Of a DNA stretch of 33,251 nucleotides, positions 5,555 through 32,994 are shown piece by piece. Position 1 is the first letter of the stretch. Each line of letters opens with the position of its first letter. The stretch lies in IMG/VR virus record IMGVR_UViG_3300034159_000061, positions 1 through 33,251 of that record. One strand, written 5' to 3'. The position numbers were made by a program, and so were the translations under genes. This stretch comes from a virus. Under the pieces are notes generated by a model, which saw only the letters and a program-made list of their open reading frames with translations, was not told the origin of the DNA and did not search any database.

Positions 5555-6460
5555 TCAGTTCGGGAAGCTGATAGCGCTCGGGGGCAGCTTCAACGGCTCG
5601 GCGACGTGGATCAGTCGACCGCTCGGCGTGATGTTCGGCTCACCGAGTGAGGCGTCGAAGAACCGCGTGCCCATCGGTCCTTTCCCGGACCTGCGGCATT
5701 CCCGGACATGGATCATCCCTATGCTTTCCAGCGTGTCGGTGATCTCGCCAAGCTCTTCACGCGTGATCTTGCCTGCGAAGCGCGACCTGATCTCGTAGGC
5801 GCCGATCCCGTCGTGTCCGGCCGCTTGGATGTAGAGCCAGACCCTTTCGTTGGTTCCGAGGTTGTTCGCCATCCGCTTCGCCGGGGCTTCGATCACCGGC
5901 AAGGCCGCGCCGTCGATCGCCAGCCACGGTTGGGATTTGACGATCAGCGGCATCGCTGACGGGTAGAGCAGCCACAGTGCTTCGCGGATGTCGGCCAGCG
6001 GCACGCTGGGAGGCCCGTCAGTCGCTTTCCGGCATCTGGCCGTGACGTTGCCGGCCTCGATCGCTACCGCACTGTCGATCTCCGCAATGGCCTCGCCGAC
6101 ACCGGGGACCATCCAATGCTCGTCAGGTCTCGACCTGCGGAGATGCAGGATGCGGAGCATCAGCGGAGCCAGGTCGGCCACCAACGCAGGCAGGCCAGGT
6201 CGGGCACCGTCCGGCTCCACAACCGCCTCAGCCTTCGGCCGACCACGCCCTTGATGCTTCCCGATCGGGAAGACGCGGACGTGGCCGCGCCGTTCGGACA
6301 TCCAGATCAGCTTCTTCCGATGAAGGGTCCTGACGATCGCCGCCGCGTCGCTGGGGTGGCACAGCAGCATCTCGCCGAAGGCTGTCAGGCTCACGCCTTC
6401 CTCGGGCAGGCTGATGGTCGAAGCCTTGCGCTCCATCAGCCGCATCTCGAGTCGTTTCAT
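5555..6460 (-). CDS. Protein with winged-helix-like segments, possible replication protein
   Basis: A 301-residue protein whose ATG at 6460 has AAGG ten bases upstream. The N-terminal 75 residues (SLTAFGEMLLCHPSDAAAIV then RTLHRKKLIWMSERRG) and a later part (VWLYIQAAGHDGIGAYEI then GEITDTLESIGMIHVRECR) both look like winged-helix DNA-binding folds. A long middle part is helical and carries no motif I know. Its gene starts next to an AT-rich segment with inverted repeats, a layout often seen for phage initiator genes and their origins; initiator function is only inferred. It may instead be a transcription factor. Confidence 0.72.
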   Translation of the reverse strand: MKRLEMRLMERKASTISLPEEGVSLTAFGEMLLCHPSDAAAIVRTLHRKKLIWMSERRGHVRVFPIGKHQGRGRPKAEAVVEPDGARPGLPALVADLAPLMLRILHLRRSRPDEHWMVPGVGEAIAEIDSAVAIEAGNVTARCRKATDGPPSVPLADIREALWLLYPSAMPLIVKSQPWLAIDGAALPVIEAPAKRMANNLGTNERVWLYIQAAGHDGIGAYEIRSRFAGKITREELGEITDTLESIGMIHVRECRRSGKGPMGTRFFDASLGEPNITPSGRLIHVAEPLKLPPSAISFPN

Positions 6461-6928
6461 CCGTCGCCATCCTTATTAGGGTGAAGCCTGATCCGTCGTT
6501 CTGAGGGGGGTTATGGGGGTTTTCGCCCTATACAGATGGTAACCCCTTTTACGTCATTCTTTCTATATAGATATATATATTAGGGTATAGAGTTAGTATA
6601 TAACTGAAACCCCTTTAACCCCCTCCGAGCCCTGCGGTTAGCGAGGTTAGAGGCCGGTTAACCGGGGCCGGTTTTCGGCCCAACCCAATACCCAAACATC
6701 TCATTTCCAGAGCGGAAAATCACACGAACGCTCGGCCGGCGTCAACCATCCGTTGACCGTCCGCCGTAGATCGTCCGTCAATATCCCTCACAAAGAAGTT
6801 GCGCTCTCCGTCATCCGTTGATATCCGTTGAGCCAAGACGGCTTGCAGAGATTCGCCGGCCGGGTCGGGAGACCACCACCACCGTCAGTCGAAACAGCGC
6901 CCTTTCGGGCGAACGGGAGAGCTTTGCC
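6461..6928. other. Divergent intergenic region, AT-rich with repeats
   Basis: No gene. The segment separates a leftward from a rightward operon. It holds an AT-rich block (about 6552-6606), a 16-base inverted repeat with two mismatches around it (6507-6522 and 6607-6622), a direct repeat AACCCCTTTTA / AACCCCTTTAA (6541, 6608), the 12-bp palindrome CCGGTTAACCGG (6654-6665) and seven TCCGT half-sites counting 6460-6828. Promoters for both operons must lie here, but I cannot fix their -35/-10 boxes. Confidence 0.6.
6748..6831. promoter_or_regulatory. Cluster of repressor-like half-sites
   Basis: ATCCGTTGAC at 6748-6757, TCCGTCAATATCC at 6774, and the run TCCGTCATCCGTTGATATCC from 6807 repeat the TCCGT/ATCCGTTGA core of the two sites flanking the repressor gene. 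Five TCCGT copies lie within 80 bases, all in the same orientation, upstream of the winged-helix gene at 6929. A binding role for the repressor is inferred. Confidence 0.55.
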
Positions 6929-14960: not shown

Positions 14961-16862
14961 CTAGAACGGAATATCGTCATCGAGATCGGAGGGCTTAAAC
15001 TGCGACCACGACGGCGCGGCTTTAGCTCTCCAAGGCTTCTCGTTCGCGAGTTGGGTGACAGTGGCGCGGCGAATGCCCGGCATCTGCGGGAGAGGCGACA
15101 CGACCATCTCGGTCGGCTTCTCCCACGGCTTCAGCTTCTTGGCCTCTTCAGCCCGGCGCGCTGCGACCATAGCGTCATGCTTCGCCAGGACGAACTCGCG
15201 CGACGGCTCCACGTAGCCGAGCGGGTTGACCGTCTCGTCAACCTCGCCGAGCTTTCGGCCGATGATCTCCCAATGCTTGCCGTTCGCCTTGATCATGATC
15301 TCGGCGGTCTGCTTCAGCGTCGTCAGCTTTGCCATGGTGTCAGCGATCGAGAACGGCGCGTCTTCGCCACCGCCGTGCTGCTTCCACCACTTCTCGAACT
15401 TCACCCGAGCGAAGCCCTGATGCTCGGGGCAAATCCATTCCTTGTGAACGACGAAGCCGCACAGATACTCCACGCGGACGCTTGGGGTGCCGCCGGCTTT
15501 GTCGTGGCGATAGAAGGTGCGGCGCTTGACGGGCACCCATGACGGCTTCGAGGACGAGAGGATCGGCACCGCGTCGGCGGTCTTGGCGATCTTCTTCTCG
15601 ACATCGCGCTCGAATTTGAAACCGCAGTCGGGGCATTCCATCAGGCCAGCGAAGATCAGCGATTTGCACTGCGGGCATTCCTTCACCGGCGCGTCGCCTT
15701 CACCCTTGCCGGGCTTCCGCACCTTCACGCGATCAACGGGGCCGTGCCGGCGGACGTTGCCGGCGAAGTCGAGCACGAGGCAATCGGACTTGCCGTTGCG
15801 GATGGACTCCTCGATATCCTTGCCCATGCAGCGCGTCCCGCGTCCGACCATCTGCACGTAAAGCGCGGTGGATTCGGTCGGCCGAAGCATGGCGAGCAGA
15901 TCGATACGCGGCGCGTTGAAGCCAGTGGTGAGCACGTTGGCGTTGGTGAGCGCCGTGATCTTTCCGGCCTTGTAGTCCGCGATGATGCGGCGGCGCTCGA
16001 CTTTATCCGTCTCGTTAGTAATCGCCTCAGCGGTGTAGCCCATCCGCCGGATTTCATCGCGGACGTGGATGGAGTGCTCGACGCCGGCACAGAAGATCAG
16101 CCAAGACTTTCGCGGCTTCTCGTTGCTGGTAGCAAACGAGATGATCTCCTGGACCGCAGCCTCCGTGATCGGGTGCTTGTCCACCGCGCGCTGAAGCTGA
16201 GTCGGAGTGAAGTCCCCGCCGGCCCGACCGACACCCTTCACGTCAAGCTGCGTCTCGGTGGCCTTCGATACAAGCGGACAGAGGAACCCAAGATCGATCA
16301 GTTCCTTGATCGTGATCTCGTAAATGATATCGTCGAAGAGCGCGTCGTCGCCTTCCGTGAGCATGCCGGAATCGAGCCGGTACGGCGTGGCCGTGAGGCC
16401 AAGGATCAGCATATCGGGATTGATCTCGCGCAACGCTGCGATGAATTTCCCATACATCGTCTGCGCATCCGGCGGCACCGTATGCGCTTCGTCGATGATC
16501 AGCACATCGACGCGCCCAATACGGTCCGTGCGCCGGAACATCGAAGCGATGCCGCCGAAGATGATCTGTGATCCGGCATCGCGCCGGCCGATCGAAGCTG
16601 AATAGATGCCGGCCGGTGCCCAAGGCCAGAAGCCCATAAGCTCGGCGTAGTTCTGCTCGATCAACTCCTTGACGTGCGTCGCCATGACGATGCGCGTCGT
16701 TGGCTCGGCCTCGATGAACTCTTGGCACAGCGTGCCGAGCACCAACGACTTTCCGCCGCCGGTCGGGAGTACAATCAGTGGATTGCCCTTGGGTTTCCGC
16801 TCCCAATAGGCGTAGGGCGCGTCGCAGGCTTTGCGCTGATATTCGCGAAGGACGTGGCTCAC
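14961..16862 (-). CDS. SF2 DEAH helicase with zinc site and SSB-like tail
   Basis: A 633-residue superfamily 2 helicase. Visible motifs: PTGGGKS (33-39), DEAH (124-127), TATP (157-160), TTGFNAP (312-318) and QMVGRGTR (337-344). A Cys4 zinc site follows (CPQC at 396-399, CPDC at 410-413). The protein ends DLDDDIPF, the same sequence type as the acidic C-terminal tip of bacterial SSB. It starts with GTG, overlapping the upstream stop as GTGA. It probably remodels DNA at forks or recombination intermediates; related to the RES/UvrB-like phage helicases. Confidence 0.9.
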   Translation of the reverse strand: MSHVLREYQRKACDAPYAYWERKPKGNPLIVLPTGGGKSLVLGTLCQEFIEAEPTTRIVMATHVKELIEQNYAELMGFWPWAPAGIYSASIGRRDAGSQIIFGGIASMFRRTDRIGRVDVLIIDEAHTVPPDAQTMYGKFIAALREINPDMLILGLTATPYRLDSGMLTEGDDALFDDIIYEITIKELIDLGFLCPLVSKATETQLDVKGVGRAGGDFTPTQLQRAVDKHPITEAAVQEIISFATSNEKPRKSWLIFCAGVEHSIHVRDEIRRMGYTAEAITNETDKVERRRIIADYKAGKITALTNANVLTTGFNAPRIDLLAMLRPTESTALYVQMVGRGTRCMGKDIEESIRNGKSDCLVLDFAGNVRRHGPVDRVKVRKPGKGEGDAPVKECPQCKSLIFAGLMECPDCGFKFERDVEKKIAKTADAVPILSSSKPSWVPVKRRTFYRHDKAGGTPSVRVEYLCGFVVHKEWICPEHQGFARVKFEKWWKQHGGGEDAPFSIADTMAKLTTLKQTAEIMIKANGKHWEIIGRKLGEVDETVNPLGYVEPSREFVLAKHDAMVAARRAEEAKKLKPWEKPTEMVVSPLPQMPGIRRATVTQLANEKPWRAKAAPSWSQFKPSDLDDDIPF

Positions 16863-17230
16863 TGCATCTTCACCGTGACCGAGGAAACGTGGTCGCGGCC
16901 ACGTTCAAGGACTGCCATCAGCGCCGTGGAATACTGCAAGTAATCAGCACCGGCGGAAATGTCGGAGTTAGTGCTGTGAACCTGCGGATCGTACTGAACG
17001 AGCTTCGCGAGCCCGAGATCGAGCAGCAACTGATCCAGGCCGAACTCGCTGACGCCGCGCCGCGAGACGATGACGGTCAGAAGAGCCGCAGCTTCGTTCG
17101 AGATGATCGTGTAGCCGGCGCGCTCAAGCGCGCGCTCGATATCGACGGCCTTCTGACCCGGCGACGCTTGCTCGCCCTCCGCTGCAAGGACGTGGTTGCG
17201 CAGAACGGTGAGGGGGTCACTATGCGGCAT
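16859..17230 (-). CDS. Hypothetical protein between methyltransferase and helicase
   Basis: A 123-residue protein. I start at the ATG at 17230, with GGAG seven bases upstream, inside the end of the methyltransferase gene (11-base overlap). A longer frame to 17542 is a shadow. It is helical: VLRNHVLAAEGEQASPGQKA, then ERALERAGYTIISNEAAALL, ending in a helix with RGRDHVSSVTVKMQ. No motif is recognised. The tight coupling on both sides suggests it belongs to the replication module. Confidence 0.68.
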   Translation of the reverse strand: MPHSDPLTVLRNHVLAAEGEQASPGQKAVDIERALERAGYTIISNEAAALLTVIVSRRGVSEFGLDQLLLDLGLAKLVQYDPQVHSTNSDISAGADYLQYSTALMAVLERGRDHVSSVTVKMQ

Positions 17231-17867
17231 CGAAATCTCCAAAGAGTGAGTTGTCGTTGTGAGCGAAGGCGCGCGCCGGGTAGCCGGGGATGTGGATGAG
17301 GTTCGGGGTGCCGCCGGTCTTGCCGACTTCGTTGCCCCACTGATGCCAGCCAGGTCGTGCGTGACGCGCGAACAGTTCGAGGTAAGGGCCGGCAAACAGC
17401 TTCTCGATGCGCTCGTAGACGACCGGCGGCTTCTCGGAATGGAGGGTGCGCGGCGCGAGAACGACCTTGTCCTCGTAGTCGAGTTCGAGGACCAACCGCT
17501 GCACGCCCTTCGACATGCGCTTGACGTTGCCGCGCGTGCCAAGCAAGCAAATCTCAGGGTTGGCGCGCGTCCAATAACCCATACCCATGTGCGGGCGCAG
17601 GCCCCGTCCGACCTTCACGTAGTTGAAACCGACCGTCTTGAACGTGAAGTCCCATGCCGACAAAACCTCGAAGGCTTTATCGAGCAGTGGGTCGCATCCC
17701 CAAAGAAGGCACGCGCTATCATCGGCGGCCAGATCGGCGACCGGCATCGCCTTGATCTGGTCGAGCGTCATGCAGTCGTAGTGCTGCTCGGGCGAGCGAT
17801 CCTTGCCTTCCTCCGAATAAGTCTCGAAGGTCCAAGCCGGGTCCGCATAGATGAGCGGAAATCTCAC
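17220..17867 (-). CDS. MT-A70 family adenine methyltransferase
   Basis: A 215-residue protein of the MT-A70 class. It begins IYADPAWTFE, with the catalytic D-P-A-W (9-12) in place of the usual DPPW, then HYDCMTLDQIKAMPV, CLLWGCDPLL, a FNYVKVGRG segment, and GYWTRANPEICLLGTRG, ending with PELFARHARPGWHQWGNEV-like text (LELFARHARPGW then WGNEV). This class transfers a methyl group from S-adenosylmethionine to N6 of adenine. It starts with GTG after GGAGATTTTCCA and overlaps the GcrA-like gene by GTGA. DNA as substrate is likely in a phage operon. Confidence 0.9.
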   Translation of the reverse strand: MRFPLIYADPAWTFETYSEEGKDRSPEQHYDCMTLDQIKAMPVADLAADDSACLLWGCDPLLDKAFEVLSAWDFTFKTVGFNYVKVGRGLRPHMGMGYWTRANPEICLLGTRGNVKRMSKGVQRLVLELDYEDKVVLAPRTLHSEKPPVVYERIEKLFAGPYLELFARHARPGWHQWGNEVGKTGGTPNLIHIPGYPARAFAHNDNSLFGDFDAA

Positions 17868-18124
17868 TGGAAAATCTCCGTCAGGTCGGGTTCGTGATCG
17901 GTGTCGATGGATGAGGCGGCCGTATCGGCATCTCGCCGAACGCGGAGTTCGCCGGTGTGCTTCGCTTGAAAGACGATGCGGGCGTGAGGTGCGCAGTACG
18001 ACAGGCCGGGGAGCGCCTTGCAGCCGCAGATCGGCGCGTGCATGCCCGCCCCGTCATTCGGGAAGTACCTGCACTGACCGGGGGTGGCGTTCATGATGGT
18101 GGTGACTGAAGGATGGTCAGACAT
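17864..18124 (-). CDS. GcrA-like C-terminal domain protein
   Basis: I start at the ATG at 18124, where GGAG lies nine bases upstream; it overlaps the upstream nuclease stop by eight bases. The 86-residue product contains GQCRYFPND (16-24), ICGC (32-35), LSYCAPHARIVFQ (41-53). This matches the C-terminal part of the GcrA cell-cycle regulator, with C18, C33, C44 and H47, which in Caulobacter contacts sigma-70. The N-terminal helix-turn-helix of GcrA is absent. It lies directly before the adenine methyltransferase. It may adjust host polymerase at methylated sites; only the domain match is seen. Confidence 0.7.
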   Translation of the reverse strand: MSDHPSVTTIMNATPGQCRYFPNDGAGMHAPICGCKALPGLSYCAPHARIVFQAKHTGELRVRRDADTAASSIDTDHEPDLTEIFQ

Positions 18125-19241
18125 CCTGCGAAGCTCCATTCTCGTAGTGCTCGGTGAGCCGGAAGAACTCGACGGCGCTGATCTCTTCGACCAGACAGGA
18201 GCCGCCACCGCCTTCGCGGGGATCGGGGTCGTCAGTCATGGTCGTGAAGAGCGACCCGCTTTCGGGGTGATGCCAGTAGCGAAGCGTCGGCTTCGATCCG
18301 TCGCGCCACGCGCGGCCATCGTTGAGCGTGTAGAGAACCCATTCTTCCTCATCGCTGGCGTCGATCAGTTCACCGGGCACAAGCGAGGGAATGAAGAGGT
18401 GCGCCGGGCACCCGGCCTTCTGTTCGGCGAGCGACAACGGCTTGTTCCAGCGCGCGCACGACCATGCGGCGTCGCCGAACATTTCTGGCGTCGAATGAAT
18501 GCACGTCCGGCAGGAAATGCGAGCCCAAGTCATCTTGTCATGGCAAGTAGTAAGGTGCTTGCACATATACTTGCACTTGAACGCCATCTTGTGATTGGGG
18601 TCCTGATGCAACTTGGGCGGAGGGGTCGCGGCGCGGATGATCCGCTCGGCGCGCTGAAGCAGCCGGATTGCCTCGACGTGATCCGTCTCGATGCGCTCGC
18701 TGTAGACCTCGCCGGTGTTCTTGTTCCGGCAAATGTAAAGGCCGCGCTCGAAACCGAAGAGGTGGCAGTACGTGTTCAACTGCACCCAATGAGCGTAGTA
18801 ACCGTTCCGCACAGACCGCAGCTTCACCACTTCCTTGAAGTATTTGTCGCCCATCGACTTGCACTCGACGACGTGCCAGGTCTTCGCCGCCTCGGGCAGG
18901 CCGAGCACTTTGCCGTCCATCTTGCCGCGCACATGGCCGGAAACCGCACCGGCCCGGTACTGACGGCCACGGTGATCGACTTCATCAACCTCGCAGCCGA
19001 TCATCTTCAGCGCGTTGAGCAGTCGAGTCTCTTCGATGTCGCCGGTCTCGAACGTGATGGCCTTCAGGCCAGTGATCTCTTCCTGCGGCGAGGCCCAGCG
19101 AAACTCGTACCAAAGCGCACGCTCGCACTCTTCGCCGAGGATCGAGATCGAGATGCCCATGGAGTCGAACGACTTCCGCGACTTCGCGTATGCCTCATAG
19201 ATCGCTTCGGTTGTGAGATCGCGCTTCGGAAGGGGAGCCAT
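18117..19241 (-). CDS. Cys-rich PD-(D/E)XK exonuclease-like protein
   Basis: I start at the ATG at 19241 (AGAGG upstream); the frame runs on to 20144 only as a shadow of two genes. The 374-residue product has GKMDGK (106-111) with D109, and VVECKSM (124-130) with E126 and K128, the core of RecB/Cas4-like nucleases. A Cys at 39 and a cluster at 223, 227, 233, 244, 247, 262 could hold an Fe-S cluster or zinc, as in Cas4 and AddB. Beside Sak4 and SSB it probably is the exonuclease that makes single-stranded ends for recombination. Confidence 0.78.
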   Translation of the reverse strand: MAPLPKRDLTTEAIYEAYAKSRKSFDSMGISISILGEECERALWYEFRWASPQEEITGLKAITFETGDIEETRLLNALKMIGCEVDEVDHRGRQYRAGAVSGHVRGKMDGKVLGLPEAAKTWHVVECKSMGDKYFKEVVKLRSVRNGYYAHWVQLNTYCHLFGFERGLYICRNKNTGEVYSERIETDHVEAIRLLQRAERIIRAATPPPKLHQDPNHKMAFKCKYMCKHLTTCHDKMTWARISCRTCIHSTPEMFGDAAWSCARWNKPLSLAEQKAGCPAHLFIPSLVPGELIDASDEEEWVLYTLNDGRAWRDGSKPTLRYWHHPESGSLFTTMTDDPDPREGGGGSCLVEEISAVEFFRLTEHYENGASQDV

Positions 19242-19310
19242 TTTGACAAGCCTCTGGCGTTCGCGCCGAAGGGCACGTTGCGCATGCTGAAATGTGAGGG
19301 GGAAGGAAGG

Positions 19311-19332
19311 CGCTGGGGCCGAAGCCCCAGCG
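19311..19332 (-). other. Strong UUCG hairpin inside the leftward operon
   Basis: On the minus strand CGCTGGGGC, loop TTCG, GCCCCAGCG forms a perfect 9-bp stem with the very stable C(UUCG)G loop. It lies in the gap between the SSB-like gene (ends 19346) and the nuclease gene (starts 19241). It is followed by CCTTCCTTCCCCC, not a true T-run, so partial termination or mRNA stabilisation is more likely than a full stop. Confidence 0.7.
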
Positions 19333-19345
19333 GTGGTGCAGGCTG

Positions 19346-19942
19346 TTACTTCTTCCAGGGCATCGAGCGAGTGCCCGAGGCGGCGGCGGTGGTGGCAGCG
19401 GCGCCCGCGTTGTGCGTCTGGCGCGCGGTCGAAGGCGTGTTGTTGTTGGCGGCGCTGGTCGGGGCGGCCTTGTTGTCGTTCGCGGGCGCTTCCGATCCGG
19501 GCGGCAGTTCGTGCTGATTGCCGGCGTGGATGTAGCGCTTGATCACGTTCTTCTCGCGGGTCTTGCCCTTCGATTCGTAGGTCTCGATTTCGAGGTCGGC
19601 CATGAAGGGCTGATACAGGAACTGATCGGTATCGGTCGTGGTCGCCGGATCGAGGCCGCACGCCAGCGTGAGGGCTTTGAGTTGCGCCTGACCGATGTTG
19701 CGGGCCTGCGCCGAGTCGTGACTGACGTTGATCGACAGGAACTTGATCTTCGAGCCCTGAGCCGGACCCTCTTCGAGGACTTCGACCTCGAACTCGAACA
19801 GATCGCCGGTGTTCTTGGAGTTGCGCTTCACCTCGCCTTCGGTGATCTGAAGCAGGTAGCGTCCGCGCGGGTTGACGGTGAATCCGCCGCCCTCCGCGTT
19901 GGACTCGTCGACATCGGCGAGGTTCACATTCAATTGTGCCAC
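19346..19942 (-). CDS. DUF669 phage ssDNA-binding protein
   Basis: A 198-residue DUF669-type protein. Residues 1-125 hold the conserved part: GRYLLQITEGEVKRNSKNTGD, FEFEVEVLEEGP, SINVSHDSAQARNIGQAQLK with the N-x-x-[ST]-x-x-A-x-x-IG pattern, and LEIETYESKGKTREKN. The C-terminal 60 residues are a low-complexity Ala/Thr/Asn tail ending MPWKK. These proteins work as phage SSBs next to recombinases and nucleases. The lack of an acidic tip is notable because the helicase in the same operon carries one. Confidence 0.83.
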   Translation of the reverse strand: MAQLNVNLADVDESNAEGGGFTVNPRGRYLLQITEGEVKRNSKNTGDLFEFEVEVLEEGPAQGSKIKFLSINVSHDSAQARNIGQAQLKALTLACGLDPATTTDTDQFLYQPFMADLEIETYESKGKTREKNVIKRYIHAGNQHELPPGSEAPANDNKAAPTSAANNNTPSTARQTHNAGAAATTAAASGTRSMPWKK

Positions 19943-19980
19943 TGGTTTCTCCTAGATGGCGTTGCAGGGTGGTGGTTGGA

Positions 19981-20772
19981 TCAGGCCGCGTTTGCTTCTG
20001 CGCTGACAGGCGGAGGCGGCAGGTACTTGGCGAGAGCCGAGTAGCCCTCACCCTTGCGGAACTGGATTTCATGCGGCATGCCGAAGCGGTTGCCAGCGAT
20101 GAAGCCGCCGCGCTCTTCGAGGAACATCCAGCGCGTCCCGCCACCTTCGGCGTGCCGAAGTTCCTTGTTGAACCCGGCGTCGACCTTCTTGATCGAAGCC
20201 TTGAAGTTGAGGAACGCGATCACGTCGCTGTTCGCTTCGAGGATGTCGGCCGCGTCCTTGTGCATGTTGATGCGGTAGCGCGAGTAGGGGTCGGTCGTCG
20301 GCGAGTCGAAGCGGCTGATGTCGCAGTGGCCGAGTTGGATGATCCCCATGTTGCGCTCGCGGCGCAGGGTCATGATGCCGTCGATGTATTCGAGGAAGAT
20401 CGAGGCGGCGACCTTGTAGCCCTTGCCGTAGCCGGGGTCTTCGATGTTCTTCCAGCCGTTGCGCACGCAGGCTTCGGTGCGGATCAGGTTTTCGAGGCCC
20501 GTGGTGGAGTCGATGATGGCGAACGCGTAGTCGTGATCTTCGTTGACGAGCGCGCCGATCGCCTCGCACAGTTCACCGTAGCTGCGGACTTCCAGCGTAT
20601 CGGCCACAACACCGGCCGGCACGCTTTCGCCCTCTGCGGTCTGGATGAAGATCGGGCGCGGAAATTCTGCCGCAAGGGACGACTTACCGATCTTCGGCAC
20701 GCCGTAGATCGTGAACACCGGCTGCAAATCCGCAGCGGTCTTCTTCTTCATGCTCTTCAGACTGATCGCCAT
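19981..20772 (-). CDS. Sak4-like RecA-fold ATPase (AAA_24)
   Basis: I start at the ATG at 20772 (GGGGAG upstream). The 263-residue protein has Walker A GVPKIGKSS (24-32), Walker B AFAIIDST (83-90), and a LGHCDISRFDSP segment after an ILQ-like strand, matching AAA_24 nucleotide-binding proteins that include the Sak4 single-strand annealing proteins. Such proteins promote homologous recombination together with an SSB, which is exactly its downstream neighbour. The C-terminus ends in a proline-rich loop (YLPPPPVSAEANAA). Confidence 0.85.
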   Translation of the reverse strand: MAISLKSMKKKTAADLQPVFTIYGVPKIGKSSLAAEFPRPIFIQTAEGESVPAGVVADTLEVRSYGELCEAIGALVNEDHDYAFAIIDSTTGLENLIRTEACVRNGWKNIEDPGYGKGYKVAASIFLEYIDGIMTLRRERNMGIIQLGHCDISRFDSPTTDPYSRYRINMHKDAADILEANSDVIAFLNFKASIKKVDAGFNKELRHAEGGGTRWMFLEERGGFIAGNRFGMPHEIQFRKGEGYSALAKYLPPPPVSAEANAA

Positions 20773-20783
20773 TATGGCTCCCC

Positions 20784-21158
20784 TTAGTGCTCGACGGGGG
20801 TGTCGAGCTTCAACGTCTTCGCCCACACCAACCGATCAACGAGGCGGTAGCCCGTGTTGTTGATGGTCTCGATGGTGACGGATTGGTTTTCGGTTTTCTT
20901 CCGGATGCGGGACATGAAGACGTTGACCGAATGCGCAGGGCGGTCTTGGTCGCCGTAGAGGATGACCACCGCCATCTGCTTCGTGACGATCTCGTTGCGT
21001 ACCAGCGCGAGGAACAGCGAGCGCTCCTTCGGAGTCAGGCGCCAGTCCGGCGGAAGCGTGCCCGTCATCGACATCGATCTGCGAAGATTGCCGATGGTCT
21101 CTTTCAGAGACGCGATCTGGCCGATCAGGGCTTCGTGCGTTTCGACTGTCGGGGTCAT
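20784..21158 (-). CDS. CtrA/OmpR-type winged-helix regulator without receiver
   Basis: A 124-residue protein with an N-terminal coiled coil (about 5-30, LIGQIASLKETIGNLRRS) and an OmpR/PhoB-type winged helix (38-110): RLTPKERSLFLALVRNE, VILYGDQDRPAHSVNVF, MSRIRKK, IETINNTGYRLV. The pattern is close to the DNA-binding part of CtrA (LTGKEY...LYGG.DEP...VF..KLRKK...ET..GRGY). There is no phosphorylatable receiver domain. It is the first gene of the leftward operon, so it may control that operon or later genes. Confidence 0.8.
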   Translation of the reverse strand: MTPTVETHEALIGQIASLKETIGNLRRSMSMTGTLPPDWRLTPKERSLFLALVRNEIVTKQMAVVILYGDQDRPAHSVNVFMSRIRKKTENQSVTIETINNTGYRLVDRLVWAKTLKLDTPVEH

Positions 21159-21171
21159 CCGTTACCGTCTC

Positions 21172-21268
21172 TTGACATCCGTCGCCGATCCGGTTTTATG
21201 CCGAATCAGTTGTGATGTTTTGTTGATGCCGTTGAACTTTATCTAACGGCGGCGGCGAAGGATGTCAA
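21172..21268. repeat. 16-base inverted repeat in the early leader
   Basis: TTGACATCCGTCGCCG (21172-21187) and CGGCGAAGGATGTCAA (21253-21268) are inverted copies with one mismatch, 65 bases apart. Each arm starts with a perfect -35 hexamer pointing inward, so two face-to-face promoters or paired operators are possible. Confidence 0.7.
21240..21268 (-). promoter_or_regulatory. Candidate leftward early promoter
   Basis: On the minus strand TTGACA (21268-21263), 17 bases, then TAGATA (21245-21240). It would make a transcript with about an 80-base leader before the CtrA-like gene. The -35 lies inside the 21-base operator sequence. A GANTC site (21203-21207) lies in the leader. Confidence 0.65.
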
Positions 21269-21283
21269 CGGATAGCGACGGAT
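21262..21283. promoter_or_regulatory. Operator sequence, left copy
   Basis: The 21 bases 21262-21282 are the exact reverse complement of 22114-22134 on the other side of the repressor gene. The half-site ACGGA occurs twice (AACGGATAGCGACGGAT). It overlaps the -35 of the leftward promoter, as expected for a repressor site. Confidence 0.75.
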
Positions 21284-21424
21284 AAAATCGCGAGCACAAC
21301 ACCTAGCAGTTCGGAGAGGGGTGCTAAGTGGGGAATATCGGCCGGAATTGATCTTCGGCTTGGGTCGCTACTGGTGCGGTAGTGGCAAATGGTGTTGATT
21401 AGAGTGCGTTGGGGAGATCGATAG

Positions 21425-22102
21425 ATGAAGAAGGCAATTTCAGCTAAGAGAACGCATCCGGCCATTGACACAATCAAGGCGCGTGTCGAAGAGCGGGTGA
21501 AAGCTGCCAACGTGTCGAGGAACGAAGCCTCCCGACGTGCCGGCCTCGGTCTGAGCTACGTGAACGACCTGATGTCCGACAGGTCGAGAGACCCGAGCCG
21601 TGAGTCGCTTGCGAAGCTTGGCGCCGTTCTGGATACCGACGCGGCGTATTTCTTCGGCGAGCAGGAAACCCCACGAATCACAAGGAAAACCGAATCGGAG
21701 GGGCGTCCCGCCGAGGTGGTGCACGGAACATCCTATCCACTCTATCAGATCGGCCTGACCGACCCGGATGGGTTTTTCGCGCTCAACGATTCGGCCAAGA
21801 GTATGATGCCGTCCCCCCTCAACAATGCCCGCGACGTATATTGCGTGTCCGTCCCCGATGATACGATGGCCCCTCGCTACCGGACCGGCGAGGCGGTGAT
21901 GGTCAATCCGAAGATGCCGGTGAAGCACGGCGGATTTGCGCTTATTCGTCAGTCGGACGACCGCGTCGCTATTCGTGAGGTCGTGTCCATATCGGTCGAC
22001 AAGATCACCGTTCGGTGCATCGGCGATCAGTCCATAGTTGAAATGCCCCGTGGCAGCGTCAAATCGCTCGAACGGATCATCGGAAGCTGGGAACTGGTCT
22101 AA
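21425..22102 (+). CDS. CI-like phage repressor (HTH + S24-like domain)
   Basis: A 225-residue protein with an XRE-type helix-turn-helix (about 25-75, NVSRNEASRRAGLGLSYVNDL) and a LexA/CI-like C-terminal domain (about 100-225). In the latter, PDDTMAPRYRTGE (144-156) stands where self-cleaving members have a Ser-Met pair, so the catalytic Ser position is T147; the usual catalytic Lys is replaced by R184 in VAIREV. It should bind as a dimer to sites flanking its own gene and repress both early operons. Loss of the dyad would make it non-cleavable; that is inference. Confidence 0.87.
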   Translation: MKKAISAKRTHPAIDTIKARVEERVKAANVSRNEASRRAGLGLSYVNDLMSDRSRDPSRESLAKLGAVLDTDAAYFFGEQETPRITRKTESEGRPAEVVHGTSYPLYQIGLTDPDGFFALNDSAKSMMPSPLNNARDVYCVSVPDDTMAPRYRTGEAVMVNPKMPVKHGGFALIRQSDDRVAIREVVSISVDKITVRCIGDQSIVEMPRGSVKSLERIIGSWELV

Positions 22103-22113
22103 CGCTGCTTTTG

Positions 22114-22142
22114 TCCGTCGCTATCCGTTGACATAACGGATA
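22114..22142. promoter_or_regulatory. Operator and candidate rightward early promoter
   Basis: TATCCGTT (22122-22129), 5-base spacer, AACGGATA (22135-22142) is a perfect palindrome; with the upstream TCCGT at 22114 it makes three half-sites. TTGACA (22128-22133) inside it can serve as a -35 for the rightward operon; the best -10 with 16-17 spacing (TATTGG at 22150) is poor. Confidence 0.72.
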
Positions 22143-22185
22143 GACGTGTTATTGGTCCGTTGCTGCTCGGGAGAGGCAACGGACC

Positions 22186-22572
22186 ATGCAATCCATCAAG
22201 CTTGTTATTCTGGAGTCGCCCTTCGCGGGCGATGTCGAAGCCAACCTCGCCTATGCGAGACGGGCCGCGAAGGACTGCTCGACGCGCAACGAGAGCGTCG
22301 CTGCTTCGCACCTTCTCTTCACTCAATTCCTTGACGATAACGTTCCGGCCGAGCGCGAAATGGGGATCGCGCTCGGCCTCGCGTGGCAGCGCGTCGCCGA
22401 CTACTCGGTCTTCTACACGGACCGAGGATGGTCGCGCGGAATGTTGCACGCGCTCGAAAGCGCGCTCGAAGAGCGGCGGCCGTACCTCGTTCGCGCGCTC
22501 GACGGTCCGGTTAAACTGCCGGACCCTACCGTTGACCCGGTCTACCGCCGCTTCAGCAAGGCGCGGTCATGA
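22186..22572 (+). CDS. DUF7768-type nucleoside deoxyribosyltransferase-like protein
   Basis: A 128-residue protein. LVILESPFAGDVEANLAYAR (6-25), AAKDCSTRNESVAASHLLF (27-45), VPAEREMGIALGLAW and DYSVFYTDRGWSRGM match the small Rossmann-like family (DUF7768, related to nucleoside 2-deoxyribosyltransferases) common in phages. The reaction is not proven for this group; handling of nucleotide pools or NAD-like molecules is possible. First gene of the rightward early operon, with GAGAGG upstream of its ATG. Confidence 0.75.
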   Translation: MQSIKLVILESPFAGDVEANLAYARRAAKDCSTRNESVAASHLLFTQFLDDNVPAEREMGIALGLAWQRVADYSVFYTDRGWSRGMLHALESALEERRPYLVRALDGPVKLPDPTVDPVYRRFSKARS

Positions 22573-22841
22573 GCGCACTCTACACCGAAAACGACGAAGC
22601 CCTCAACATGGTGCTCAAGGCGCTACGAGGCGCGGATATCGACTGCGCCCGCTTTCGCATCTCGATGATCGACACTGACTTCGCACGCGAGATCGAGGCG
22701 CTGATCCGCGCCTACGAGGTCAGGGATGCGATCGAGCGGATCGAGCGATACCTGGCCCCCAAATACCCGAGTGTCACCGCGTGCGCCTCGCATGTCGGCT
22801 CACCGAATCATTTCTCACAACTCGATAGGAGTCTTCTGTGA
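22569..22841 (+). CDS. Small hypothetical protein before the clamp gene
   Basis: A 90-residue, mostly helical acidic protein overlapping the previous gene by ATGA and the next by GTGA. It contains NMVLKALRGADIDCARFRIS and a charged helix EIEALIRAYEVRDAIERIER. No motif known. Confidence 0.66.
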   Translation: MSALYTENDEALNMVLKALRGADIDCARFRISMIDTDFAREIEALIRAYEVRDAIERIERYLAPKYPSVTACASHVGSPNHFSQLDRSLL

Positions 22842-24004
22842 AGCTGACCATCAACCGCGACCGCCTGGCCGACATCGTCACCCGTGGCGTGTCGAGCGCG
22901 CCGAAGAACTCGCCCTCGGTGATCGCCAACAACGCGCGGATCACCGTGCGGGACGGCAAACTGTCCATCGCGTCGACTGACTTCGAGATGATGGTCGAGG
23001 CGTCCGGCGAATGCGCGATGGAGCGTGGCGGTGTGACCACCGTGGATGCTGCCAAGCTGAAGATGACGGTCGATCGACTGCCGAAGGGTGTCGAGGTGTC
23101 GTTGACGTATGACGACGCCAAGCACGACCTGATCATGAAGGCGGGGCGCTCCCGCGTGACGTTCCCGACGCTCGCCGCCGAAGACTGGCCTGCGCGCGCC
23201 ATGAATATGGACGGTGCGGAGTTCAAGCTGTCCGGCGCCGATCTCGCTCGCCTGTTCGGCCATACCGCGCAGGCTCTCTCGCCGGCCCCCGGTTCGCCGA
23301 TGGCCGGCGTGTTCCTCCATGTCCGAGAGACCGGGCAGGCCCCGCAGCTTGCCGCTGTCGGCACCACGGGGATGATCCTGATCCTTGCTTCGATCGCGGT
23401 GCCGAGCGGCGCCGAGAACATGCCGGGCAAGACGGGGCAACCGGCCGGTGTCATCCTCAGCGCCGAGACCGTCAATTCCGTGCTGCGCCTCTTCCGCGCT
23501 GCCGAAGAGGTCGATGTCGTTGTCAACGAAAGCTCGATCCTCTTCCGAACCAGCGACATCCATTTCTGCTCTGCCATGTTGGTCGGCACCTATCCCAACT
23601 ATCAGCCCTTGGTGAGTTCGCCGTCAGAGAACCGCGTTCTCGTCGACCGCGCGCTCTGCATCAACACGGTATCGCTGCTCGAACCCTTCGCGTCGAAGGA
23701 ACTTGGTCACCGCCTGCAATGCGCCGGCTCCGATGAGGGGTTCGTGGTCGCGGTCGGCAGTCAGACCGGCGGCGGCGTGGATGTCGTCGAGGCGGAGATC
23801 GACGGCGAGATCGAAGCGTTCGGCGTGAACGGGCAGTTCATGAAGACGATGCTCAATTCGTTCAAGACCGAGACCGTCGCGCTGCACCCCGACGCCCGAC
23901 AGCGCCGCGTGATGTTCAAGTCGGATGGCGAGCCCGACCTGATCGGCGTCATCGCCATGATGAACATCACCACCGACCTGGCCGAAGGCCCGAAGCATGA
24001 GTAA
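22838..24004 (+). CDS. dnaN: Phage-encoded DNA polymerase III beta subunit (sliding clamp)
   Basis: A 388-residue protein of clamp length, starting with GTG that overlaps the previous stop. The three repeats are visible: the first starts MKLTINRDRLADIVTRGVSSAP and includes ARITVRDGKLSIASTDFEMM; the second has MAGVFLHV and VGTTGMILILAS; the third runs from LVDRALCINTV to the end. The clamp encircles DNA and tethers polymerases. The peptide-binding pocket residues cannot be judged by eye. No phage polymerase lies in the window, so it may capture the host polymerase. Overlaps the next gene by eight bases. Confidence 0.88.
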   Translation: MKLTINRDRLADIVTRGVSSAPKNSPSVIANNARITVRDGKLSIASTDFEMMVEASGECAMERGGVTTVDAAKLKMTVDRLPKGVEVSLTYDDAKHDLIMKAGRSRVTFPTLAAEDWPARAMNMDGAEFKLSGADLARLFGHTAQALSPAPGSPMAGVFLHVRETGQAPQLAAVGTTGMILILASIAVPSGAENMPGKTGQPAGVILSAETVNSVLRLFRAAEEVDVVVNESSILFRTSDIHFCSAMLVGTYPNYQPLVSSPSENRVLVDRALCINTVSLLEPFASKELGHRLQCAGSDEGFVVAVGSQTGGGVDVVEAEIDGEIEAFGVNGQFMKTMLNSFKTETVALHPDARQRRVMFKSDGEPDLIGVIAMMNITTDLAEGPKHE

Positions 24005-27093: not shown

Positions 27094-27384
27094 GTGAGCC
27101 ACCTTGACCGACAACTGACAAGTCTGGCGGGGCGCGATACGCCCCCCATGATCGAACGCGTCGAGCGCGCGCTGCTTGTGCTCGCCTACCTAGTCGAGAT
27201 CGACGGTGACGTGCATTTGCCGATGTACGAAGTCTTTGAGTCGAAGCTTGACGAACTGCGGAGCAAAGCGGATGTTCGCCAGCGCGCGAGGAACCGTTTG
27301 CACTCATTCATGGGTCACAACGACAACACCGCCATCACCGACCGCGCACCAAGGCCGCTGGCGGCTTTAGGGCGATCTGCTTAA
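27094..27384 (+). CDS. Small hypothetical protein at the end of the rightward operon
   Basis: A 96-residue protein starting with GTG after GGAAGGG. It has a long helical part (MIERVERALLVLAYLVEIDG, FESKLDELRSKADVRQRARNRL). Its last 50 bases overlap the 3' end of the convergent integrase gene. No motif is visible. Confidence 0.62.
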   Translation: MSHLDRQLTSLAGRDTPPMIERVERALLVLAYLVEIDGDVHLPMYEVFESKLDELRSKADVRQRARNRLHSFMGHNDNTAITDRAPRPLAALGRSA

Positions 27385-28660
27385 GGTACTTCTGCTTCAG
27401 GTCGAGTGAAGGCCCCTTGCCATATTTCGGTTTCTTCGAGTCGTGGCCCATCAGACTATCGATCAAGCTATCCTGCGCCTCGATCGCAACGAGACGATCC
27501 TTGAAGCTGTGCCGTAGCGAATAGACGGTGTGGTCCTTCGTTGGTCGCAGACCGTTCTCTTGCAAGAATTTGTTCGCCACCGCCGAGAACCCTGACGAGT
27601 TGTCGTGGTATCGCTTGAAGCCGGAACGCATCTTCTTTAGAGCCGGCAGCGCGCAGCCGACCAGTGGAATCTCGCGGTCGCTGTGCTCGGTCTTCATCCG
27701 CCGCCCGTCTGGCATCACCCGAACGTAAGGGATCGGCGCGTCGAGGAAGATTGTGCTCGCGTTGAGGTTTAGAATCTCGGATGGGCGCAAGCCCGTGTCG
27801 GCGATGATATAGATCACCATTCGGGCCTCTTCGTTGAGCCCGTCGAGCGCCCCGTTCGCCAGAATGTGATTCTGGATGAAGTCGGTGTCATAGGGCGTCG
27901 GGTCTTTCTCCGTCTCGCCCTTCAGCCGCAGGCCATGGAAGAAATCGGGGAGCCCGAGCCGGCGAATGATGCTCAGTTCCTTGAGCATGCCGCTCAACTG
28001 GCCGATCTGCTTGTTTGCTGTCTTGGCCGCGATCCCCTCGTTGATCACGCGGCCCCGCCAATGCTCCCGGAAGGTGAGGGCGTCGTCGTGCGTGATCTCG
28101 GTGATTGGCTTGTCACGGCCGATCACTTCAAGGAACGCTTCAACGGCGCGCGTCCGCCCGTTCGTCCAAATGCGAAGCTGGTCTTCGGACAGGTCGAGCG
28201 TGTCTTCCGCGATCTCGGATCGATATTCGGGGAAGATTTGGGAGATCAGCGGGACTTGCCGCTTGGCGGTGCCTAGCAGGGCCGCACGCGCGATTGGATC
28301 GTTGACCGCGCCGTTCTGCCCCAAGGCTTCGACGCGCGCCAGTTGGGCCTCGAATGGCTGTTGTAGGAGCATCGCGTTGTCGATGTAGTCGAAGCCCAGC
28401 GACCGCGCCCGCTGCCGGGCGGCGGTGTAGCTGGTCAGTTCCTCCCGTGGCCTGCCGCTGGCGAGGCCGCGCCAAAACGCTTCGAGTTCCTTGTTGAGGC
28501 GATCGGCGACGACACCGGCGCGCCGGCCGAGTCGATCCTCTGCGATCCTGATCTTGGTCGAATGCCGGATGACCTTGCGAGGGTCGAGCGCGGCGTATTC
28601 AGTTGGCACGCGGCGTTGGAAGTGCCATGTGCCGTTGCGGCGCGTGAGGAAGTCGGACAT
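27335..28660 (-). CDS. Tyrosine-type site-specific integrase
   Basis: A 441-residue protein from the ATG at 28660; an upstream ATG at 28729 would add 23 residues. The N-terminus (FLTRRNGTWHFQRRVPTEYA) is the DUF6538-type arm-binding segment. The catalytic part has DTGLRPSEILNL (first Arg), YSLRHSF (second Arg; the first His of HxxR reads Tyr), LMGH and KYGKG with the probable nucleophile Tyr. It should integrate and excise the phage between tRNA-derived attachment sites. It points into the prophage, 120 bases from the proposed attachment site. Confidence 0.9.
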   Translation of the reverse strand: MSDFLTRRNGTWHFQRRVPTEYAALDPRKVIRHSTKIRIAEDRLGRRAGVVADRLNKELEAFWRGLASGRPREELTSYTAARQRARSLGFDYIDNAMLLQQPFEAQLARVEALGQNGAVNDPIARAALLGTAKRQVPLISQIFPEYRSEIAEDTLDLSEDQLRIWTNGRTRAVEAFLEVIGRDKPITEITHDDALTFREHWRGRVINEGIAAKTANKQIGQLSGMLKELSIIRRLGLPDFFHGLRLKGETEKDPTPYDTDFIQNHILANGALDGLNEEARMVIYIIADTGLRPSEILNLNASTIFLDAPIPYVRVMPDGRRMKTEHSDREIPLVGCALPALKKMRSGFKRYHDNSSGFSAVANKFLQENGLRPTKDHTVYSLRHSFKDRLVAIEAQDSLIDSLMGHDSKKPKYGKGPSLDLKQKYLKQIALKPPAALVRGR

Positions 28661-29000
28661 TGGAAACCCGCCAACGATGTAGGACGTTTTGTAGGACGTT
28701 TCCTTGCATCGCGGATGTTGGAAAAGCAAGCAAAATCAAAGAAATTGCTGCAAATTGCGGGTCGCGCGCGCTCCACGCGGAGCCCTTCACCCGCTCCAGT
28801 CCCAAGATCTTCCAGTCCCAAGACCTTCGTCGGCCTTCTGACCAGACCGGTCCGACTGCAAAGTTCGGTTTTGGACCGTTCCGAACAATCGGATGCGGGG
28901 CTCCGCTGCCAGAGAGCCCGTCACGCGCGTTGGCCGGATCGCTATCCCTGTCGTATGGCTGTCCCTCTCGTTCGTCCTGCGCCCGAGCCTCGACGCGAAC
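28661..29000. other. Integrase-side intergenic region with the attachment site
   Basis: No gene. It holds the direct repeat GTAGGACGTTT twice in a row (28679-28703 area), a small palindrome GCTCCACGCGGAGC (28770-28783), the tRNA remnant and, just right of it, the imperfect tandem GTCCCAAGATCTTCCA / GTCCCAAGACCTTCG. Everything to the right of about 28800 I take as host DNA. Confidence 0.6.
28783..28798 (+). other. Putative attR: 3' end of tRNA-Gly
   Basis: CCCTTCACCCGCTCCA equals the T-stem 3' half (CCCTT), acceptor 3' half (CACCCGC), discriminator T and CCA of alphaproteobacterial tRNA-Gly genes. The preceding bases do not continue the T-loop (TTCGATT would be expected), so it is only a fragment. 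Lying behind an integrase gene it fits the crossover core left by integration. Confidence 0.72.
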
Positions 29001-31507: not shown

Positions 31508-32251
31508 ATGACGATGGCCGCATCCGCGATCTTCTCCTGCGATCAGATCGGGCTCGATCTCGGCGGGCGCTCGATCCTTCGCGGCATTTCGCTCGACGTG
31601 AAGCCGGGCGAAGTGATGGGGATCATCGGGCCCAACGGCGCCGGCAAGACCAGCCTGTTCGAAGTGCTGTCGGGGCGGATCTCTCCCAAGAGTGGCAAGG
31701 TCAACTATGACGGCCGTGACATCACCGCGCTCCCGCTGCATCGGCGGGCGCGTCTCGGCATCGGCCGCACCTATCAGACGCCGATCGTGCCGGAAGACAT
31801 GACCGTCGCGCAGGTTCTCAAAGCTGCACGGCAGGCCTATCGGCCGTATCTGACGCCGGACGATTCCGAGTGGGGAGCGGGTCTGGTCGGCTTTCGCGTC
31901 CCGGGCGCGATGATGGCGGACCGGCTCGACACGCTGAACCGCCGCAAGCTCTTGATCGCCTGCCTCTTGATGCGGCGCCCTTCGGTGCTGCTGATGGACG
32001 AGCCGGCCGCCGGTCTGATCAACTCCGAGATCGACGAGCTCGACGACATCATGCGGGTGCTGGCCAAGGAGCTGAATATCGCGATCGTTCTGATCGAGCA
32101 TCGGATGGAGCTGTTGGATACGATCGCCGATCGCGTGCTGGTGATGGATGCCGGCGAGACGATCGCCGAAGGGTCGCTGTCCGAGATCCTTCTCAATCCG
32201 CGCGTCAAGGCTGCGTATTTCGAATCCGACGCCGGCGGGGGGCTGCATTGA
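31508..32251 (+). CDS. LivG-type ABC ATPase with degenerate signature
   Basis: A 247-residue ATPase of the LivG class. Walker A GPNGAGKT (41-48), Q-loop at YQTPIVPEDM (89-98), Walker B LLMDEPAAGL (161-170) and the switch His in IEHRM are intact. The signature (LSxGQ in the family) reads TLNRRKL (142-148), without its Gly. Its usual position is before the second ATPase, and both are needed for the dimer. Lies 10 bases after the receptor gene. The change suggests an asymmetric ATP site. Confidence 0.85.
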   Translation: MTMAASAIFSCDQIGLDLGGRSILRGISLDVKPGEVMGIIGPNGAGKTSLFEVLSGRISPKSGKVNYDGRDITALPLHRRARLGIGRTYQTPIVPEDMTVAQVLKAARQAYRPYLTPDDSEWGAGLVGFRVPGAMMADRLDTLNRRKLLIACLLMRRPSVLLMDEPAAGLINSEIDELDDIMRVLAKELNIAIVLIEHRMELLDTIADRVLVMDAGETIAEGSLSEILLNPRVKAAYFESDAGGGLH

Positions 32252-32994
32252 TGAGCATGCCCGAGCCTGGTGCAGCGCGTCCCGCGGTTCTCGACGTCAA
32301 AGGGTTGTCCGCCGGCTGGGGGCCGATGCGCGTGATCCACGACCTCGATCTCACCGTCTTCGCCGGCGAGCGGATCGGACTTGTCGGGCTCAACGGACAC
32401 GGCAAGTCTACCCTGTTTCAGGCAATCGCGGGACTGACAGGCTGGCAGCGCGGCTCGATCAAGCTCAACGGCTACGAGGTCGGCCGCACCCGCAGCCAGG
32501 GGCCGGGTCGCTACACCCATCTGATCGTGCGTCGCGGCCTCGCGCTGATCCCGCAGGGCGACGAGATCTTTCACGGGCTGACGGTCGAGGAGCATCTCGA
32601 CAGCGGCGCCTTCACCAAGCGCGCCTGGGCCGAGCGCGGCATCCGCAAAAAGAGAATTCTGCAGATCTTTCCGCCACTGGAGAAGCTGATGAAGACGCCC
32701 GTGGGGCGTCTCTCCGGCGGCGAGCGGCGGATGGTGTCGATCGGCCGCGGCCTGATGTCCGACGCCGAATTGTTCCTGGTCGACGAACCGTCGCTCGGTC
32801 TCGCGCCGAAGATCGGACGATCCGTCGTCGCCGCGCTGATGGCGGTCGAGCTCGGCGGCTCGGCGATGGTGATCGCCGAACAGAACGTCGCGTTGCTCGA
32901 AGGCAGCGTCGATCGAATCATCGGCATGCATGCCGGCAAACTGAAGGGCGAGGCGTCCGCGTCGAAGTCCATGTCGACGGAGCGCGCCGGATGA
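32251..32994 (+). CDS. LivF-type ABC ATPase
   Basis: A 247-residue ATPase starting at the ATG that shares one base with the previous stop (TGATG). Walker A GLNGHGKST (46-54), signature LSGGE (154-158), Walker B LFLVDEPSLGLAP (174-186) and an IAEQN switch region are all typical of LivF. The His in the Walker A loop (NGHGKS) is a mild variant. It pairs with the preceding ATPase to drive the importer at the inner membrane. Confidence 0.9.
   Translation: MSMPEPGAARPAVLDVKGLSAGWGPMRVIHDLDLTVFAGERIGLVGLNGHGKSTLFQAIAGLTGWQRGSIKLNGYEVGRTRSQGPGRYTHLIVRRGLALIPQGDEIFHGLTVEEHLDSGAFTKRAWAERGIRKKRILQIFPPLEKLMKTPVGRLSGGERRMVSIGRGLMSDAELFLVDEPSLGLAPKIGRSVVAALMAVELGGSAMVIAEQNVALLEGSVDRIIGMHAGKLKGEASASKSMSTERAG

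Follow-up and report, generated by a model that had tools for sequence, protein, structure and literature searches.

What would a temperate phage gain from encoding only the polymerase-contacting part of a host cell cycle regulator? This question is raised by IMG/VR virus record IMGVR_UViG_3300034159_000061, whose 33,251 nucleotides were analyzed as a whole and are referred to here as the window. This virus record derives from a temperate phage of the soil bacterium Bradyrhizobium and contains phage early genes. The regulator GcrA contacts domain 2 of sigma70 with its sigma-interacting domain (SID) and uses its N-terminal domain to bind methylated DNA (PMC7403470). The leftward (minus-strand) early operon of the window runs downward from position 21158, and the GcrA-like, CtrA-like and adenine methyltransferase genes that a first-pass annotation of this DNA had assigned to one early operon are all present in it, on the minus strand:

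17220..17867, minus strand: MT-A70 family adenine methyltransferase with a GTG start (Pfam, PHROG_359, gene junctions and C termini)
17864..18124, minus strand: stand-alone GcrA SID of 86 amino acids, without the N-terminal helix-turn-helix (HTH) (Pfam GcrA, hhalign, AF2/Foldseek)
20784..21158, minus strand: CtrA/OmpR-type winged-helix protein of 124 amino acids, without a receiver (Trans_reg_C, cellular matches, tree and alignment)

Our preferred reading, to which we assign a probability of roughly 0.4, is that the genes form an early operon for regulation and replication that contains separated pieces of the host CtrA/GcrA/methylation circuit, and that the free SID vies with the GcrA of the host for access to sigma70. 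The annotation had gone on to propose a phage device that couples replication to the methylation-driven host cell cycle or seizes control of that cycle; judged from the sequence, the genes may plausibly constitute such a device.

The SID protein scored 28.8 bits with the Pfam GcrA model (cut-off, 26.9), and the match was confined to profile positions 98-150, which correspond to the C-terminal domain. An N-terminal HTH was found neither in the Pfam match, nor in the 86-amino-acid gene, nor in the family alignment; we therefore refer to the protein as an isolated SID rather than as GcrA, and the earlier description of a GcrA C-terminal domain without its HTH was correct. The most likely start codon is the ATG at 18124, which results in an 8-bp overlap with the Cas4 gene. 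Alignment by hhalign of a 14-member SID family profile with seven Bradyrhizobium GcrA paralogs gave a probability of 95.2 (E, 2.8e-8; 55 columns), compared to only 0.1 for an unrelated control alignment. A template-free AF2 model derived from 14 sequences (mean pLDDT, 67.4; best 10-residue blocks, 86-88) was searched with Foldseek against 350,542 PDB chains, and the top three matches, 5yix_B, 7ye2_G and 7ye1_G, were all from GcrA SID:sigma70 structures. For 5yix_B, the GcrA SID with sigma70 domain 2, the Foldseek probability was 0.97 and the TM by target was 0.76, with an E-value of only 0.14; a second structural comparison with this chain gave a Z of 5.6 with 47 of 48 residues aligned. A model built from just 6 sequences had no useful PDB match. 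Sequence and model together show an isolated GcrA SID, with the fold known at the level of the model, and the structural likeness to the sigma-binding domain expected by the first-pass annotation was found, with GcrA SID chains ranking first in the PDB.

The SID carries a C-x14-C-x10-C-x2-H pattern, the spacing of which is identical to that of host GcrA. In two relatives (L075 and L076) the last His ligand is replaced by Cys, which would be a typical metal-ligand swap, as for a metal site; the family alignment showed poor conservation outside this site. The likeness to Caulobacter GcrA (the SID of 5YIX and 7YE1/7YE2) consists of the SID fold and the Cys/Cys/Cys/His pattern, with 47/48 SID residues aligned; however, the window protein has neither the N-terminal methyl-DNA-binding domain nor the linker.

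The CtrA-like protein scored 40.1 bits with Trans_reg_C (cut-off, 26.2), its sole domain. No receiver domain with a phospho-acceptor Asp was found by Pfam in the 124 residues, which bears out the earlier call of a winged helix without its receiver. The N terminus appears by eye to be coiled-coil-like, and the protein ends in an invariant tail, VDRLVWAKTLKLD. Host CtrA was the best match outside the prophage in all four prophage-bearing Bradyrhizobium genomes, with 37.5% identity over 66 residues of the winged helix. In a tree of winged helices taken from several phages and a single host genome, CtrA grouped with nearly all of the phage proteins (SH-aLRT, 95; bootstrap, only 56). NCBIfam placed PhoP ahead of CtrA, and the CtrA equivalog cut-off was far from reached. 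On this sequence evidence, the protein is likely to descend from CtrA.

The methyltransferase matched Pfam MT-A70 over the full model (86.5 bits) and PHROG_359 (1.6e-72). Its DPPW-type catalytic motif is DPAW, which is invariant across the phage family. As noted previously, the gene overlaps the GcrA-like gene: the GTG start and the SID stop codon share 4 bp (GTGA), and an RTGA overlap of 4 bp was seen at 12/12 of the family junctions examined. Since short overlaps are common across the early operon of the window, this overlap alone is no proof of a functional pairing. The conserved C terminus of the SID (DLTE) partly overlaps the GGAG Shine-Dalgarno sequence of the MT-A70 gene; it was considered as a protein-binding motif, a proposal that is weakened by the presence of the Shine-Dalgarno sequence within the DLTE codons. 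The MT-A70 proteins of the phage family carry a C-terminal extension ending in NDNSLF(G), and most of the distant MT-A70 proteins end at WGNEV, without this tail. In a distant phage, L117, the MT-A70 protein has QVDLF near its C terminus; like NDNSLF(G), this resembles a clamp-binding motif, and the phage family encodes a divergent DnaN-like clamp (22838-24004). A role for the NDNSLF tail as a sliding-clamp motif is suggestive only.

Near relatives of the phage were found in Bradyrhizobium genomes and in viral contigs. Wherever the region is held, the order CtrA-like, Sak4, DUF669, Cas4, SID and MT-A70 is retained and the SID adjoins MT-A70. An isolated SID was present in 5/196 sampled Bradyrhizobium genomes, 4 of which were already known prophage carriers. 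The SID changes fastest of the three proteins: relatives have 30-38% identity to the window copy, compared to 63-77% for the CtrA-like protein and 67-91% for MT-A70. The CtrA-like gene is intact in most relatives. Four Bradyrhizobium host genomes (L043-L054) each encode 2-3 full-length GcrA paralogs, and three of the four also have a sequence that matches the GcrA family in its N-terminal part alone.

The co-occurrence in related phages foreseen by the first-pass annotation was therefore seen, and it extends to unrelated phages with gcrA, MT-A70 and winged-helix genes. An MT-A70 search found L117, whose MT-A70 protein is 47% identical to that of the window and whose full-length gcrA overlaps MT-A70 by 4 bp. 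A search for viral gcrA returned 80 loci, and 50 viral gcrA records were scanned over their full length. MT-A70 occurred in 11/50 of these records and lay no more than 3 kb from gcrA in all 11; counted as five lineages, it was at most 2.3 kb away in all five (Fisher p, 7e-4 against random placement). An OmpR-type winged helix was present in six of the 50 and was within 1.2 kb of gcrA in five (Fisher p, 6e-4 over five records, with one of two closely related 108-kb elements counted). Early genes cluster, which makes random placement a lenient null, and such operons are rich in short overlaps. In L166, an unrelated phage, genes for a CtrA-like protein, a full GcrA and MT-A70 are consecutive, with 4-bp overlaps at both junctions; the 4-bp overlap between full gcrA and MT-A70 recurs in the unrelated L117, L165 and L166. 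The elements of approximately 108 kb (L150 and L155) carry gcrA, what looks by eye like a LexA-type HTH gene, a winged helix whose N terminus is coiled-coil-like, and MT-A70. Elsewhere (L182, L190 and L204), full-length viral gcrA is followed by an NPPY/NPPW methylase-like gene, joined to it in L182 (NPPY) by a 4-bp overlap. The methylase likeness of these proteins is at the motif level only, since Pfam failed to recognize the two that were tested (L182 and L190); they are possibly GANTC-type enzymes. The repeated linkage suggests that viruses repeatedly tap the methylation-driven host cell cycle.

How might such an operon act? In the preferred reading, the SID would dock on domain 2 of host sigma70, at the surface used by full-length GcrA, and by occupying that site would uncouple host GcrA from the polymerase and weaken GcrA-dependent host transcription. 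An SID without the methyl-DNA-reading HTH could not bring polymerase to methylated promoters, so site occupation would be its likeliest effect. The phage would rely on its own promoters with consensus -35 elements, which should not need GcrA. The coproduced MT-A70 would place adenine marks on phage DNA, host DNA or both, and the CtrA-like protein, free of phospho-control, would be a constitutive DNA-binding regulator. The SID and MT-A70 would form the core, and the CtrA-like gene would be an accessory that is lost in some relatives. Competition is favored by the presence of full-length host GcrA paralogs as a competitor target, by the lack of an HTH in the SID, and by the fast divergence of the SID, as an antagonist might show. 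The reading as a whole draws on the homology and modeled fold of the SID, its ligand spacing, its invariant gene overlap with MT-A70, the linkage of gcrA to MT-A70 and winged-helix genes in other lineages, and host CtrA as the closest cellular match of the winged helix. Several observations weigh against it. That divergence may equally reflect relaxed constraint outside the metal site, and confidence in the SID model, judged by its pLDDT, is moderate, with a Foldseek E-value of only 0.14 for the best match. Within the window, CtrA-type sites (TTAA-N7-TTAA) were not enriched. In L076 the CtrA-like gene is deleted to an apparent C-terminal remnant, and in the related prophages L034 and L035 it is frame-scrambled in the DNA-binding core; all three keep the SID and MT-A70. 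MT-A70 occurs in 340 INPHARED records and is widespread among phages that infect a range of hosts lacking GcrA. Finally, other phages retain a full-length, HTH-bearing GcrA beside the methyltransferase, which suggests that the ancestral function was to activate and not to antagonize.

Activation is the essence of an alternative that we consider possible, if somewhat unlikely, in which the SID works with sigma70 as a positive cofactor and the lost HTH is replaced by a DNA-bound partner from the phage (MT-A70 or the CtrA-like protein), so that polymerase is recruited to, or activated at, phage promoters in the way that GcrA operates at methylated promoters of the host. GcrA is itself an activator (PMC7403470), and both the invariant 4-bp coupling of SID to MT-A70 and the recurrent pairs of full gcrA with MT-A70 would fit a methylation writer with a polymerase contact. 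However, a complex between the HTH-less SID and MT-A70 is conjectural, short overlaps occur throughout the operon, and both early promoters are near consensus and should need no cofactor. It is more doubtful that there is no cell cycle device at all, and that a replication and recombination operon simply includes an orphan methyltransferase that serves to avoid restriction, a winged-helix regulator resembling Cro, and a small metal-binding protein of GcrA ancestry that no longer binds sigma70. The remaining operon genes (Sak4, SSB-like, Cas4, RadD-like and PrimPol) are what such an operon would contain, MT-A70 is common in phages, and the SID is weakly conserved outside the metal site, with its conserved DLTE partly accounted for by the Shine-Dalgarno overlap; yet the model matches the SID fold specifically, and restriction avoidance fails to explain why unrelated phages have gcrA linked to adenine methyltransferases and to CtrA-type winged helices. 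A chance resemblance of short domains to GcrA and CtrA deserves hardly any credence. The NCBIfam equivalog cut-offs for GcrA and CtrA were far from met, and in a six-frame control the Pfam GcrA model also matched in an unrelated archaeon, but Pfam, hhalign, the template-free model with Foldseek, the ligand spacing and the identity of the best cellular matches (host GcrA and CtrA) all agree, and a chance set is unlikely because gene order is kept across relatives and GcrA SID chains top the Foldseek ranking. At the other extreme, it can be envisioned that alphaproteobacterial phages have repeatedly assembled a portable CtrA-type/GcrA-type/adenine methyltransferase circuit in a coupled operon and that, in the Bradyrhizobium lineage, the free SID tethers MT-A70 to RNA polymerase and so marks the promoters where polymerase sits; we regard this as a long shot.

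The individual gene types have precedents. GcrA homologs are encoded by phiCbK-like Caulobacter phages (PMC3556154) and by an Agrobacterium phage (PMC6630229). The phiCbK protein gp222 is, like the SID, a GcrA family protein from a phage, and a change in the replicative state of the host was suggested as its effect (PMC3556154); however, it is a homolog of host GcrA in a large lytic phage and was not reported beside an adenine methyltransferase, whereas the window phage is temperate and encodes only the SID, next to MT-A70. Receiver-less winged helices of the CtrA/OmpR type are likewise found in the Roseobacter phages RDJL Phi1 and Phi2, where they are annotated as CtrA, and in Paracoccus phage vB_PmaS-R3, whose "CzcR-like" protein also carries the CtrA hallmark. 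These proteins keep that hallmark (IIDVFxC..xxWGxGY), in contrast to the more divergent window protein, and no GcrA or MT-A70 is annotated alongside their genes. Sinorhizobium phages encode GANTC methyltransferases, and the phage enzymes whose GANTC specificity was tested belong to the NPPW/F/Y motif class (PMC5537653). PhiLM21_p027, Phi2LM21_p21 and Phi3LM21_p21 (Sinorhizobium/Paracoccus) are phage adenine methyltransferases located, like MT-A70, near replication genes, and were proposed to be CcrM mimics (PMC5537653); they have NPPW/F/Y motifs and tested specificity, whereas the window enzyme is an MT-A70 protein with a DPAW motif. Host CtrA has been implicated in the control of several alphaproteobacterial phages (PMC9437464, PMC10589892), which similarly ties phage gene control to the CtrA circuit; there, host CtrA acts on the phage, whereas the window phage encodes its own CtrA-type domain and shows no enrichment of CtrA sites.

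A full-text search of the open-access literature for GcrA and MT-A70 together returned no paper, and no description of the trio or of an isolated phage SID was found there; phage GcrA, CtrA and CcrM-mimicking methyltransferases had been noted singly, and no report of their joint working was found. The suggestion that the system was possibly undescribed is therefore upheld for the isolated SID and for the set of linked genes, which appear undescribed within that literature, whereas phage GcrA, phage CtrA and GANTC-specific methyltransferases of phages are each already on record. Here these gene types are linked genes, both in the window phage family and in unrelated phages, with the GcrA part in the window family pared down to the domain that binds polymerase. 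Should the SID bind sigma70, it would be a natural, genetically small inhibitor or adaptor of the GcrA/CcrM circuit, useful for dissecting that circuit in rhizobia, and would offer a concrete route to ask whether phages rewrite methylation-driven cell cycle transcription.

The rest of the operon, which according to family scans also includes PrimPol, and the surrounding genes are as follows:

14961..16862, minus strand: RadD-like helicase, the next large operon gene (NCBIfam NF053632, 268.6 bits, under the equivalog cut-off of 720)
16859..17230, minus strand: small protein with no Pfam or PHROG family match, present only in some relatives
18117..19241, minus strand: Cas4-domain exonuclease (PHROG_1990; E, 2.6e-90)
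19346..19942, minus strand: DUF669/single-stranded DNA-binding-like protein (Pfam, 48.1 bits; PHROG_2300 and PHROG_6015)
19981..20772, minus strand: Sak4-like recombinase (AAA_24) (Pfam, 112.9 bits; PHROG_124)
21425..22102, plus strand: divergent XRE/S24-type repressor, cI-like (Peptidase_S24, HTH_3, PHROG_4)
22838..24004, plus strand: DnaN-like sliding clamp of the rightward early operon (TIGR00663, 113.9 bits, under the equivalog cut-off; Pfam DNA_pol3_beta, 67.6 bits)
27335-28729: integrase
31870-32994: ABC transporter gene

The rightward early operon contains the DUF7768 gene, DnaN, a dCMP deaminase and an m5C methyltransferase. The DNA beyond the integrase, with the ABC transporter gene, is probably host flank.

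Alignment of the intergenic region 21159-21424 over 15 relatives, together with motif positions in the window, defined the following regulatory elements:

21203-21207: GANTC site (GAATC/GATTC) inside the conserved block CTGATTCGGCnTAAAnCCGGA
21240..21283, minus strand: operon promoter with repeats, TTGACA (21268-21263), 17 bp and TAGATA (21245-21240), conserved in most of the 15
22113..22130, plus strand: tandem ATCCGTYG operator over the -35 of the rightward early operon, also seen in relatives

The GANTC site that the first-pass annotation had placed in the operon leader at 21203 is present; it lies outside the core promoter, approximately 35 bp downstream of the -10. It is found at -50/-51 from the CtrA-like start in 14/15 relatives, is absent from L019, and belongs to a longer conserved block. 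Avoidance of GANTC as a phage signature was rejected: observed/expected ratios were 0.33-0.53 in phage versus 0.43 in host DNA, and because both are similarly poor in the motif, its scarcity is host-wide. The longest GANTC-free stretch of the window (16373-19025, 2.65 kb) spans MT-A70, the SID and the greater part of Cas4 and is not clearly shared by relatives.

Tandem ATCCGTYG repeats with a 10-bp period cover the -35 of the leftward operon (21256-21283), and the alignment showed a second, inverted repeat set near the CtrA-like start codon. A third tandem site of the window lies at 6748-6830, upstream of the gene starting at 6460, and ATCCGTYG occurs 14 times in the window against 4.5 expected. 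The CtrA-like protein was considered as the reader of these operators on account of their 10-bp direct-repeat geometry, a candidacy that L027 disfavors: its operators are changed (ATCCA), as is the recognition helix of its repressor (SYVFDV for SYVNDL), and the CtrA-like recognition helix is unchanged. The XRE/S24 repressor is thus the likelier reader, although this single event is weak evidence. At 22154-22189, the DUF7768 start codon is preceded by a conserved inverted repeat, GGTCCGTTGC...GCAACGGACC, whose loop holds the ribosome-binding GGGAGAGG, an arrangement that suggests translational control.

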